DNA of 24,717 nucleotides, from positions 1 through 24,717 of the IMG/VR virus record IMGVR_UViG_3300027736_000237; one strand, 5' to 3'. The DNA is from a virus. Each line of letters begins with the position of its first letter. Position 1 is the stretch's first letter. Made by a program: the position numbers and the translations under genes. The notes under the pieces were generated by a model, which saw nothing but the letters and a program-made list of their open reading frames with translations, made no database searches and was not told the DNA's origin. Below, one piece after another: positions 7,833-24,717 of the stretch.

Positions 7833-8492
7833 TTAAAATTCTGGTTCACCTCTTGGACCTGTTCCTGTAGGCTCAGGTCTAGGTGAAGGTGCAGGTGTCG
7901 GTCTAGGCGCTGGTCCTCCAGCTTGAAGTTGTCTTTCAATTTTTGTTGACATTGCTTCTAATACTTGTTTAAGTCTTTCTATTTTTCCAACTAAACTTGT
8001 TACTGCTGGAATATTTTTCATGGCATTAATATATGAATCAAGAGCATGATGTGCGTTTTTATAAGAATCTTTCATGTGAGATACATGCATGTTTTGCCAT
8101 GCTTTTTTCATTTTATCCCAACCTTGTGTTGCCCAACCAGCTGTTTTACCGCCAAGAGAAGCACCTGCTGCTGCTCCAGCAGCTGTACCTAATGGACCAA
8201 GTGCTGATCCAGCAAGACCACCTACAGCAGCACCACCACCCACACCAAGTTTACCAATTGCAGCTTGTCCAGCACCTTTTATGCCTTGCCAAATGTTACC
8301 TAACATGCCGGGTTGGTTTTCAAATGCTTCGTTAAAATAATGAGCATTATTTCTTCCATATGTTTCAACAAAAACATTATTCAATGTTTGTGCTGGATGA
8401 ACAAATAAACTTTGTATTACCAAATGTTCAACAATTTCGTCCAAAACAGACGGACGTTCTGATATTTCTAAAAATTCTCTAAAATTTCTCAT
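7833..8492 (-). CDS. Candidate internal head protein (219 aa): capsid-targeting-like N-terminus, glycine-zipper segment, proline-rich tail
   Basis: The protein starts MRNFREFLEISERPS, with I-S-E at residues 10-12 as a possible prohead-protease site. Residues 77-117 form a Gly/Ala-rich segment with repeated GxxxG spacing (GGGAAVGGLAGSALG and onwards), typical of glycine-zipper segments that insert into or associate with membranes. Residues 120-190 are helical and charged, then a tail of PRPTPAPSPRPEP follows. The ATG overlaps the upstream gene's TGA (ATGA), with AAGGGTAG as ribosome binding site. It is the last gene of a three-gene operon whose members all carry the same N-terminal motif. If packaged and injected it might act at the host membrane; this is inference. 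Confidence 0.75.
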   Translation of the reverse strand: MRNFREFLEISERPSVLDEIVEHLVIQSLFVHPAQTLNNVFVETYGRNNAHYFNEAFENQPGMLGNIWQGIKGAGQAAIGKLGVGGGAAVGGLAGSALGPLGTAAGAAAGASLGGKTAGWATQGWDKMKKAWQNMHVSHMKDSYKNAHHALDSYINAMKNIPAVTSLVGKIERLKQVLEAMSTKIERQLQAGGPAPRPTPAPSPRPEPTGTGPRGEPEF

Positions 8493-8704
8493 GATCTACC
8501 CTTTCTTAATCTTTTCTTGTTACCTATGAAATCTGTATCAGTTAAATGTTGAATTGGTCCGGCTAGCCCATAATCAGCAACATTAAAAAACTGCGGAAAC
8601 TTTCTAGTAATCATTCCAGCGCCAATTGGTAATGCAAAATGAGCCACATCACCTGTGCTTGTAGAGACTTCATCAATTTTCAACCAATATTTGAAGCCTT
8701 TCAT
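8489..8704 (-). CDS. Small protein (71 aa) with a capsid-targeting-like N-terminus
   Basis: The protein starts MKGFKYWLKIDEVSTSTG, with F4, Y6, W7 and I-D-E at residues 10-12 followed by a small-residue stretch, as expected for a processed targeting peptide. The remaining 59 residues contain a Gly-rich hydrophobic part (HFALPIGAGMITRKFPQFF) and end in a basic tail (GNKKRLRKGRS). Both ends overlap neighbours by four bases (ATGA), and a ribosome binding site (GAAGGGTAA) lies in the end of the upstream gene. No family recognised; it may be a small cargo protein packaged in the head. Confidence 0.75.
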   Translation of the reverse strand: MKGFKYWLKIDEVSTSTGDVAHFALPIGAGMITRKFPQFFNVADYGLAGPIQHLTDTDFIGNKKRLRKGRS

Positions 8705-13802: not shown

Positions 13803-14291
13803 TTATTCAATAAATGATGGTATGTCTTTTACCAAATAGTAATTATGTCCCATAAATTTTCTATCTAAACAGCTTCCATTATTAGGTTTAAGACTATTTC
13901 CTTCTTGATCATACATTTTATTCCAACAATAAACAAATTTGTTGGGAGTTAGAATTTGTGTAAGAATCATATTTTCTGAGCCAAAAAAGGCTATAGCAAT
14001 TTTAAATGAAACGGTAAATGGTAAAAAATACAAATCTTCTGACCAGATTTGTAAAGTTTCAATTATGTTTTTGTCTTCTTCAAAATAATCTGTCTCTACA
14101 CAATTAAAATAAAATTGTATATCATAACCATCGCAATTAAATAACCAAGTTTTAAAATCCTTTGCTGACAATTCTATATCAGGATTACCCTTTAAAGAAG
14201 AATATTCTTGTAATACATAACCCATCAACCTTCCATACTTTACCGCTTCTTTCAATCCATTGATGCGATTGACAGTTATGTTCTCGTTCAT
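13803..14291 (-). CDS. Unknown protein (162 aa)
   Basis: The ATG overlaps the upstream gene's stop by four bases. The sequence is a compact globular type rich in Phe, Tyr and Trp with several cysteines. Visible segments include IQFYFNCVETDYFEEDKN, LYFLPFTVSFKIAIAFFG and KFVYCWNKMYDQEG. The hydrophobic run near residues 88-103 is more likely a buried beta strand than a membrane helix. No motif of a known enzyme is visible. Position between uvsX and the small downstream genes suggests a phage DNA metabolism accessory protein, without direct support. Confidence 0.65.
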   Translation of the reverse strand: MNENITVNRINGLKEAVKYGRLMGYVLQEYSSLKGNPDIELSAKDFKTWLFNCDGYDIQFYFNCVETDYFEEDKNIIETLQIWSEDLYFLPFTVSFKIAIAFFGSENMILTQILTPNKFVYCWNKMYDQEGNSLKPNNGSCLDRKFMGHNYYLVKDIPSFIE

Positions 14292-16065: not shown

Positions 16066-16425
16066 TTAAATGTCATCTGAATCCTCTTGTTTTTTTAGAT
16101 AACGATCATACATAGAACCCGGAACAGGTTTTAAATTAAATTTTTCAAAAAGTGATTCTATATCAAATTCACCATGAAGAGGTACAAAAAAATCTTTTAT
16201 AGTATAAATGCTTCCACTTTGTGTATGAATGTCGTATTCATATCCATTGGTTTCTGAAGGTTGATTTACACTTACAATCATGCTTGTTCTAATTCGTTTT
16301 TCTGGTATTTCTAAAGTAAAAGGATTACCACGAGCCTTATCCCGATGATGAAAAACCGTTGCTTCGTCAGCAAAAATATGATCTCCAGCACCTTCTCTTA
16401 ATTGAACATATTCATGAAATTTCAT
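16066..16425 (-). CDS. Candidate internal head protein (119 aa) with a capsid-targeting-like N-terminus
   Basis: The protein starts MKFHEYVQLREGAGDHIF, with aromatic spacing and L-R-E at residues 9-11 followed by GAG. This is an almost ideal form of the prohead-protease-processed leader. AGGAGATT precedes the ATG, and an ACTAAATAG box (core 16451-16457) lies 25 bases upstream. The remainder is a small mixed alpha/beta domain with beta strands (TSMIVSVNQ, YEYDIHTQSG, YTIKDFFVP) and an acidic end (KKQEDSDDI). It lies downstream of a similar gene (16473-16985) and upstream of uvsX. No known family. Confidence 0.75.
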   Translation of the reverse strand: MKFHEYVQLREGAGDHIFADEATVFHHRDKARGNPFTLEIPEKRIRTSMIVSVNQPSETNGYEYDIHTQSGSIYTIKDFFVPLHGEFDIESLFEKFNLKPVPGSMYDRYLKKQEDSDDI

Positions 16426-16472: not shown

Positions 16473-16985
16473 TTATCCTTGTTGACCGGGTTGATTATAT
16501 GTTTGTTCATATTCATGTTTTGCAATTCTATAAAATTTACCTTCAGCTTCTTTAACAAGATAATCTTGAGGCTTCAAAACCATATCTTCACCCCAAGAAG
16601 CCTTAAACATAACAGGTTCATTACCTGTATATAAAGCAACCATTCTAGGGCTTTGTTCTGGATGTACAGGTCCACCAATGTTTCCTTGATATAATTTTGG
16701 AAATTTTGCAGATTTAACAACATATTGTTCACGACTAGGTCCACTCATAATAATGTCATTAACATCAGCTGTATTAGTAGTTTCTTTTCCATCAGCAGTA
16801 ACAGTAACAATCGGTTTTGACTCTTGTGCTACCGTATAGGAAAAAGGAGGCATGTTTGTATCTCTAGCAACATAATTATAATTCTTTTTCTTTTTAGTAG
16901 TTGGCAAAAAGTTTAAATCAGTAGCAACTTCCTCTATATTGATGGTATTTTCTCGCATAAGATAATATTCATGAAAACTTTTCAT
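16473..16985 (-). CDS. Candidate internal head protein (170 aa) with a capsid-targeting-like N-terminus and a PGDY-like domain
   Basis: The protein starts MKSFHEYYLMRENTINIEE, with M-R-E at residues 10-12 as a possible processing site. Residues about 28-80 are polar with a lysine cluster (TTKKKKNYNYVARD). Residues about 83-165 form a domain with strands and the segment FKASWGEDMVLKPQDYLV followed by YRIAKHEYEQTY. I have seen this type of W-G-x-x-(hydrophobic)-x-x-(G/Q)-D-Y-L-V module in phage hypothetical proteins, but its function is not known to me. AAGGAG precedes the ATG and a TACTAAATAA box lies 17 bases upstream. A terminator separates it from the ssb gene. Confidence 0.75.
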   Translation of the reverse strand: MKSFHEYYLMRENTINIEEVATDLNFLPTTKKKKNYNYVARDTNMPPFSYTVAQESKPIVTVTADGKETTNTADVNDIIMSGPSREQYVVKSAKFPKLYQGNIGGPVHPEQSPRMVALYTGNEPVMFKASWGEDMVLKPQDYLVKEAEGKFYRIAKHEYEQTYNQPGQQG

Positions 16986-23154: not shown

Positions 23155-23182
23155 ATGCTAGTCTTAATTTTAATAGAGTCAA
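23155..23182 (-). promoter_or_regulatory. Probable sigma-70 promoter upstream of the 22569-23123 gene
   Basis: Minus strand TTGACT (23177-23182), 16 bases, TAGCAT (23155-23160). The -35 overlaps the stop of the polymerase gene. The -35 hexamer is the same as in the helicase and polymerase promoters. Confidence 0.5.
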
Positions 23183-24489
23183 ATTTCAGAGTAATTTTTC
23201 AAAAATGCTAAATTTTCACCAAATTTGATATCAACAAAAAGTCTCAATGGTCTGTATTCAGAAAATTCTTTCTGTAAAACATCTTTTATTTGATTCACTG
23301 AAGAACTAAGTTTTTCTTTTTTGATAGAAAAAACAAAACAGTCATGAATTGAAAATAATAATCTGAAATCTTTGTTTTCAATTGATTGAACATCATTCAT
23401 CTTCATAAAACAAAAGACAGCAGCTGGAGAATGAACAGAAAAGTTCATTGCTTTGTAACCATCATTTTCACTAAAGCTTTTCTTTCTCTTAAAATAATCA
23501 AAACAATGACCAACATTGTCAGCTTGAGCCATTTGTTGTGTCACATAGTCAAATGCTTTGCTAAATAAAGACTTTATTTTTCTCAAGTAAATTTGTGATT
23601 CATTAATAGAACAACCTAGAGATTCAGATAGCTTAGATGCAGAAATACCATAAATTGTTGGTAAAAATAACTTCTTACCTAAATCTTTATAGTTCTTATC
23701 TTCAAAATTATTTAAATCAAGAACATATTGAGCTATCTGCTCATAGGGATGACCTGTGTTATACAATAGTGTATTCAAGTTAGCATCATTACTCAAAAAT
23801 GCTAACACATATAACTCTAGTGCTTTAAAGTCAAAAGATACAAATATTTCGTCTTCTGGTAAAGCAAAATTTACCTTAATTTCATGTGTTAAACTATGTG
23901 GATTAAAATTTTTACTTGAAATTAATTTAGAGTTAAGTCTACCATTTTCTTGAAATCTAGATGAATAGTAAGGATAAACAAGTGTAGCTTCGTTATCTAA
24001 AATGATTCCTTGATTTTCCATATGTGGAATTGTATGACAAAGTAATTTCTGAAACACATTGGTATAAATCTTAATATTTTCTGATTTAATAAATTTCAAA
24101 AAAGTTGAAATTATATCACTTAATTTTTCAAAAGAACAACTTATATCGTTGTAGTCAACAAACCAATTTAAGTCAAAAAACACTTTAAAATCAATTAATT
24201 TTCTGCAATTTTGTTTTAGGCAAAATGATTGAAAAAGCTTGGTATTTAAGCAAATTATTGGTCGATTATATTCTGCTAAACAATTCACAATATGGTGTAC
24301 AAATGAACATGTGTTGTTTTGATGTAATTTTATTTCAAATTCAGAACCCTTTGGTCCATGGAACTTTATGTGAAGTAAAAGATTTTTCTTGTCTGTTAAA
24401 TCAGGTTCATTTAAAATTTCCAAATAAATAAATGGCTCGACACAAAATGTGTCGTAAATTTTTTCAAAAGTAGTTTTGTCAATGTTCAC
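23179..24489 (-). CDS. Short family A DNA polymerase (palm and fingers, no recognisable exonuclease)
   Basis: The family A motifs lie in the C-terminal half: an NGRLNSKLIS stretch like the TGRLSS element before motif A; motif A FVSFDFKALELYVLAFLS (Asp220, Glu225); motif B KKLFLPTIYG (Lys272 or 273, Tyr280-Gly281); YKAMNFSVHSPAA like the conserved NxxxQ-x-x-A-A helix; motif C FSIHDCFVF (His382-Asp383). At 436 residues it is shorter than most phage polymerases (about 600-700). The first 150 residues have a faint exonuclease-like pattern (ICLNTKLFQ, IDFKVFFDLNWF) without its catalytic carboxylates, so proofreading is probably absent or on another protein. The GTG start at 24489 sits 7 bases after a -10, implying a leaderless message. 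A T4-like phage with family A rather than family B polymerase is notable. Confidence 0.88.
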   Translation of the reverse strand: MNIDKTTFEKIYDTFCVEPFIYLEILNEPDLTDKKNLLLHIKFHGPKGSEFEIKLHQNNTCSFVHHIVNCLAEYNRPIICLNTKLFQSFCLKQNCRKLIDFKVFFDLNWFVDYNDISCSFEKLSDIISTFLKFIKSENIKIYTNVFQKLLCHTIPHMENQGIILDNEATLVYPYYSSRFQENGRLNSKLISSKNFNPHSLTHEIKVNFALPEDEIFVSFDFKALELYVLAFLSNDANLNTLLYNTGHPYEQIAQYVLDLNNFEDKNYKDLGKKLFLPTIYGISASKLSESLGCSINESQIYLRKIKSLFSKAFDYVTQQMAQADNVGHCFDYFKRKKSFSENDGYKAMNFSVHSPAAVFCFMKMNDVQSIENKDFRLLFSIHDCFVFSIKKEKLSSSVNQIKDVLQKEFSEYRPLRLFVDIKFGENLAFLKNYSEI

Positions 24490-24525
24490 AAAGAAAAATC
24501 TACGCTAATTCACAACGAAAGTCAA
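24490..24525 (-). promoter_or_regulatory. Sigma-70 promoter giving a leaderless polymerase mRNA
   Basis: Minus strand TTGACT (24520-24525), 17 bases, TAGATT (24497-24502), then 7 bases to the GTG start. Transcription should begin at or within one or two bases of the start codon. Confidence 0.65.
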
Positions 24526-24571
24526 AAAGAATTTTGTTTAACTTTGGCACACTTTTTGCTTCGTGCGGAGA

Positions 24572-24704
24572 AATATAAGTTATTATATATACATTCCCAA
24601 TTACTTCGTAATTGGGAATGCTTTAGTTTAAGCAGTAACAATATTTACTCTTCGCTTCGCTCAGAGTAAATAAGTTACTGCTTAACAAAAATATAACTTA
24701 AATT
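24572..24704. repeat. Large composite inverted-repeat structure (outer arm enclosing two hairpins)
   Basis: Hairpin 1 is a perfect 13-bp stem (CATTCCCAATTAC at 24592-24604 with its complement at 24608-24620, 3-base loop). Hairpin 2 spans 24628-24685, with a 12-bp outer stem (TTAAGCAGTAAC / GTTACTGCTTAA) and, after a small bulge, a 10-bp inner stem (TATTTACTCT / AGAGTAAATA). An outer arm pairs 24572-24583 with 24693-24704 (11 of 12). The whole can fold as a three-way cruciform. No gene is seen in 24490-24717. Confidence 0.75.
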
Positions 24705-24717
24705 AAAAAAATTATTG

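Follow-up and report, generated by a model that had tools for sequence, protein, structure and literature searches.

Twin GNA-triloop hairpins between inward-facing sigma-54-like sites upstream of a phage DNA polymerase gene: a possible replication-initiation site

Two long hairpins lie upstream of a DNA polymerase gene in the genome of an uncultured phage, raising the question of what such a structure does beside a replication gene. The window analysed here is a virus fragment of 24.7 kb (24,717 nucleotides) whose right end falls inside the hairpin element. An initial annotation had described a three-way cruciform-capable structure at this end of the window, built of two long near-perfect hairpins within an outer inverted repeat, and had named a replication origin, a structured noncoding RNA and a packaging or recombination site as its possible functions. 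The stretch upstream of the polymerase is indeed free of genes, and both hairpins are present as described (Table 1).

A single-copy locus shared by divergent phages

The remainder of the element is carried by a near-identical contig, L001, in which the sequence past the window end continues with further A+T-rich DNA, a second flanking site and a divergently oriented gene. The intergenic region of L001 measures 517 bp, with the polymerase on one side and a divergent gene of unknown function on the other. The polymerase itself is short, at 436 residues, and its Pfam match, spanning residues 165-426, covers the polymerase domain alone.

Relatives were gathered using the polymerase and its alignments, giving 16 contigs, 14 of which include upstream sequence. 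The element was found in all 14, always upstream of the family A polymerase, in the gap between divergent genes. These contigs represent nine distinct variants, with polymerases down to 35% identity. Six variants make up the clade of the window (clade A: L001, L002, L003, L004, L015 and L132), and the remaining three (L067, L113 and L115) form a second clade with polymerases 35-36% identical to that of the window. The latter three were first picked up through the right-hand flanking motif, which is therefore present in them by construction; the other six were found without it. All relatives are metagenomic fragments, and the sample is small, being nine variants in two clades.

No DNA matching the element was detected in 50,697 catalogued phage records, and the closest polymerase in the catalogue (LR756511, 32% identity) is not surrounded by such hairpins. 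Relatives were also sought by pattern. The H1 apex CTCTGAGCGAAGCGAAGAG matched unrelated, mostly G+C-rich viruses (a subset of contigs L008-L033) that lack the rest of the element and in which this 19-mer at times caps a short hairpin, e.g. acaCTCTGAGCGAAGCGAAGAGtgt; a search for the convergent flanking sites matched many repeat-rich contigs without hairpins; and a third pattern returned only chance matches besides known members.

The genes neighbouring the element are alike in both clades, and nothing there points to a rearranged genome. These phages encode UvsX-, gp32- and DnaB-like proteins as well as SbcC-like and further recombination proteins, and a UvsW-like helicase gene lies nearby. 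Elsewhere in the window, a 162-residue protein (13803-14291, minus strand) gave a weak AID/APOBEC-like deaminase match below the cut-off (E=0.0011), and small proteins at 344-691, 8489-8704, 16066-16425 and 16473-16985 (minus strand) begin in similar fashion with a motif M-x-x-F-x-x-Y/W-x-x-x-x-E, recalling the capsid-targeting leaders of T4.

Table 1. Features of the polymerase-proximal region, in window coordinates unless contig L001 is named
Feature	Position	Strand	Description
DNA polymerase, family A	23179..24489	-	436 aa; Pfam DNA_pol_A E=8.8e-26; PHROG DNA polymerase
Sigma-70-like polymerase promoter	24497..24525	-	TTGACT - 17 - TAGATT, directly before the GTG start
R site	24544..24559	+	TTGGCACACTTTTTGC; sigma-54 -24/-12-type; points into the hairpins; 9/9 variants
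Outer inverted repeat	24572..24704 (arms 24572-24583 with 24693-24704)		Present in the window; non-conserved; outside the element
Hairpin H2	24592..24620	-	Perfect 13-bp stem CATTCCCAATTAC / GTAATTGGGAATG; 3-nt loop GAA, C-G-closed on the minus strand
Hairpin H1	24628..24685	-	First of the pair in polymerase sense; stem of 12 bp (outer) and 10 bp (inner), then a 2-bp apex; both-side changes in relatives
A+T-rich stretch, hairpins to L site (start)	24686..24717		Goes on in L001 7720-7806, 87% A+T
L site	L001 7704-7719 (past window end)	faces inward	Sigma-54-type; partner of the R site

Hairpin conservation and loop type

Folding of the 158-nt region containing the hairpins gave a z-score of about -9 on either strand, and none of 200 shuffled sequences folded equally well. 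Covariation in related phages had been suggested as a check, and the hairpins proved to be conserved there, with stems that remain paired despite sequence change. Across five close variants every cell of the 37 pairs was paired (100%), a value reached in 0 of 500 shuffles; in 12 of the 37 pairs both partners had changed, and no pair had a change in just one partner. In H2 alone, both-side changes affected 8 of the 13 pairs among the five variants, with pairing intact throughout. This covariation is evidence for a maintained palindrome; it is not proof of selection on the fold, because template-switch correction of palindromes could contribute. The outer inverted repeat fared differently. It exists in the window with 11 of 12 positions matching, as annotated, but its eight core pairs were kept in 52.5% of cells across the five variants compared with 52.3% in shuffles. 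Because the outer repeat is not conserved, the description as a three-way structure was dropped.

A C-GNA-G triloop caps all 18 hairpins of the nine variants, on the polymerase-sense strand every time, and the middle position is A in 16 of them, C in L113 and T in L132. In H1 the inner stem is topped by a tandem sheared-type GA/GA step, then GC and the GAA triloop, and this GA/GA step beneath the GC-GNA-GC apex recurs in all six clade A variants. Read on the opposite strand, the loops become TNC and the tandem GA step is gone. Stems range from 9 to 24 bp across variants and vary in sequence, and G-T pairs within them amount to one in ~240 internal pairs. The 111-kb and 91-kb relatives (G001 and G002) contain no further triloop hairpin with a stem of at least 12 bp.

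Structured RNAs contain several percent G-U pairs as a rule. GNA loops are known to produce extraordinarily stable DNA mini-hairpins, with GCGAAGC as the type case (PMC4686876), and in the promoters of phage N4 the loop-closing C-G pair together with a 5' G and a 3' A in the loop is needed for extrusion under natural supercoiling (PMC4496689). The loop class and the near-absence of G-U pairs therefore suggest that the hairpins act as DNA-type rather than RNA-type structures. Calculated DNA folding energies do not tell the two strands apart, the parameters containing no GNA bonus. Covariation by itself does not denote RNA; here the loop type indicates DNA.

Flanking promoter-like sites and A+T-rich DNA

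The hairpins are framed by two inward-facing sites that, by consensus match, look like sigma-54 promoters. The R site sits 60-70 bp ahead of the polymerase start; its partner, the L site, is full in seven of the nine variants, carries GT for GC at -12 in L132 and is absent from L113. In each of eight contigs the sequence TTGGCAY-N5-TTGC occurs exactly twice, in convergent orientation around the hairpins. Scoring with a sigma-54 matrix built from 29 Salmonella sites (PMC3844500) placed the L and R sites at ranks 1 and 2 of all positions in both the 111-kb and the 91-kb contigs, with scores within the range of true Salmonella sigma-54 sites. In the 111-kb contig these values are approached by a third site and by the best of the shuffled scores, in the 91-kb contig by nothing. 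The -24 GG / -12 GC core with its 10-base spacing is seen at 17 sites in the nine variants, 16 with GC and one with GT, a substitution likewise found in the sigma-54 sites of pspA and pspG (PMC3844500).

The two larger contigs, which are incomplete, yielded no sigma-54 gene and no credible activator, the activator-domain matches being of Walker-A type only. To our knowledge, hairpins are not commonly framed by convergent sigma-54 sites, and sigma-54 promoters are not usually linked with phage DNA.

Two further observations concern these motifs. A palindrome, CGACACA-TTT-TGTGTCG, lies in the first polymerase codons (window ~24430-24460; L001 ~8035-8055) and is conserved or nearly so in the clade of the window; relative to the R site and its orientation it is ~100 bp upstream, the position expected for an activator site. 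Separately, inverted copies of sigma-54-like units (TTGGCAYG-N4-TTGC ... GCAA-N4-CRTGCCAA) are numerous in unrelated viral contigs, including L059, L057, L060, L062, L096 and others, some with several copies per few hundred bases, and these may be decoys, regulators or repeats.

Both flanking genes appear to have promoters of their own. The TTGACT-type promoter adjoining the polymerase start has the same layout in most variants, and the left gene has a similar one at its start codon in six of the nine. Because the polymerase promoter sits at the start codon, H1 and H2 would lie upstream of the main polymerase mRNA and, given the arrangement at both genes, outside both short leaders; for the same reason the inward sites are not obviously required for expression of either gene.

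Between the L site and the hairpins the DNA is strikingly A+T-rich, at 85-91% in six of eight variants (86-91% after the left site in clade A without L132), against a yardstick of 86% for the 99.9th percentile of 80-bp windows. The exceptions are L115, at 79%, where the region contains a 9-bp repeat in 10.7 copies, and L132, at 67%.

Candidate functions of the element

Because a promoter-like site, A+T-rich DNA and DNA-type hairpins adjoin replication genes, we favour the interpretation, tentatively and at somewhat less than even confidence, that this ~230-bp region is a cis-acting DNA element for replication initiation, combining a T4-type promoter, an unwinding element and extrudable hairpins. 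An inward promoter would fire through host RNA polymerase with sigma-54, or through a phage protein that adopted the site, and its transcript would enter the A+T-rich stretch and open the duplex, like the transcripts of T4 oriF and oriG. Divergent transcription of the two flanking genes would supply negative supercoiling, under which the GNA hairpins could extrude on the polymerase-sense strand; if SSB-resistant, as in N4, they would keep the duplex open and could mark the strand for assembly of helicase, primase or polymerase.

The closest precedent is T4 oriF and oriG, where transcription diverges and a promoter leads into an A+T-rich element (PMC3016281); the arrangement here is likewise a promoter, in this case predicted from sequence, followed by an A+T-rich unwinding stretch of ~100 bp. 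Several T4 origins lie at transcriptional divergence, and the phages studied here share UvsX-, gp32- and UvsW-like proteins with T4. However, the T4 promoters are middle-mode (MotA) whereas the present sites are sigma-54-like, paired and convergent; hairpins receive no mention in PMC3016281, in contrast to the twin GNA hairpins described here; and the polymerase is of family B in T4 and of family A here. The hairpins resemble the N4 virion RNA polymerase promoters in the loop, which has three bases, begins with G, ends with A and has a closing C-G pair, on one particular strand (18/18 hairpins), but N4 stems are short (5-7 bp) with conserved bases and a downstream start motif, whereas here two hairpins of free sequence, with stems of 9-24 bp, follow one another. 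H1 contains GCGAAGC (GCGTAGC in L132), the d(GCGAAGC) mini-hairpin, and all others are C-GNA-G, although the mini-hairpin is a structural motif and not a biological system. Similarly, the flanking sites match RpoN -24/-12 promoters in TGGCAY-N5-TTGC, in fixed spacing with a free spacer and in scores within the known Salmonella range, but differ in forming a convergent pair around hairpins, with no activator or activator-binding site identified.

Several points count against an origin. L132 combines an L site bearing GT at -12 with a stretch of just 67% A+T, and L113 has no L site. Convergent transcription between the L and R sites would overwind the hairpin region, not unwind it, and template switching in replication can maintain perfect palindromes without selection. 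No initiator protein for such an origin was identified. At 4-fold sites the GC skew tracks the gene strand, with no change of sign at the element, and the cumulative skew has a local minimum ~4 kb away; because 4-fold-site skew follows the gene strand, this minimum says nothing about an origin, and skew was discarded as uninformative, neither for nor against. The origin proposed in the initial annotation stands as the best option on anatomy and position beside replication genes, without a switch in 4-fold-site skew to accompany it.

Probably the element serves either to begin phage DNA replication or to turn genes on. Taken by itself, the second is an unlikely but serious alternative, in which hairpins extruded by negative supercoiling control transcription. 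They might serve the flanking genes as promoter or switch, much like the N4 virion RNA polymerase promoters, or sense supercoiling as an operator placed between the divergent pair; the L and R sites would then be genuine sigma-54 promoters whose transcripts continue into the gene on the far side. The C-GNA-G triloops are what N4 promoter hairpins require, the element does lie between divergent genes, and its flanking sites score like known Salmonella ones; against this, the long stems of free sequence depart from the short N4 hairpins with their conserved bases and start region, and the polymerase has its own promoter beside its start in most variants. The search for an N4-like giant virion RNA polymerase (PF00940) was silent in five incomplete contigs, and the resulting lack of a single-subunit RNA polymerase is a weak objection because all controls of that search were silent too. 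The hairpins could instead belong to a structured noncoding RNA or 5'-leader made from one inward promoter, and the stable fold on both strands, the compensatory changes in the stems and promoter-like sites placed to transcribe the hairpins would all fit. We nevertheless consider an RNA improbable, and the annotation's proposal weakened: what is conserved is characteristic of DNA hairpins, in that G-U pairs are nearly absent and the loops are not RNA tetraloops but GNA triplets, a type stable in DNA; the window has no Rfam match at the gathering score, there is no terminator that would yield a discrete RNA, and scarcely any single-stranded RNA motif is conserved between the clades.

Even less probable is a site for recombination, resolution or packaging that would be recognised in its cruciform or single-stranded hairpin form. 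A cruciform-capable element that is single-copy and phage-wide, in phages encoding SbcC-like and other recombination proteins, would be in keeping with such a role, but its position is fixed beside the polymerase, the neighbouring genes bear no trace of rearrangement, and the sigma-54-type sites would be left unexplained. Packaging in particular found no support, since the sole weak terminase-like match in the 111-kb relative is ~46 kb away. A mobile element of the MITE type with terminal repeats is disfavoured by orthologous position, a single copy per genome and slow co-evolution. The simple explanation offered in the initial annotation, a pair of bidirectional terminators serving convergent genes, would account for the intergenic position of the hairpins and has virtually no probability left: extension to the right revealed a divergent gene, and in the eight variants tested neither hairpin has a U-tract behind it on either strand, bearing out the annotation's own remark that the structure is much more than a usual terminator.

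Few extruded DNA hairpins have a proven role, the N4 promoters being the standard example. Here, a whole family of uncultured phages retains a twin GNA-hairpin element at a constant position despite deep divergence, and at ~230 bp this element is compact enough for direct tests on plasmids. Should replication initiation be its function, the start of replication would be coupled both to supercoiling and to one of the host's sigma factors. It is conceivable, albeit doubtful, that the element represents a new type of origin that unites a pair of GNA hairpins, extruded by supercoiling, with convergent sigma-54 promoters, so that the sigma-54 status of the host would gate the start of phage replication.
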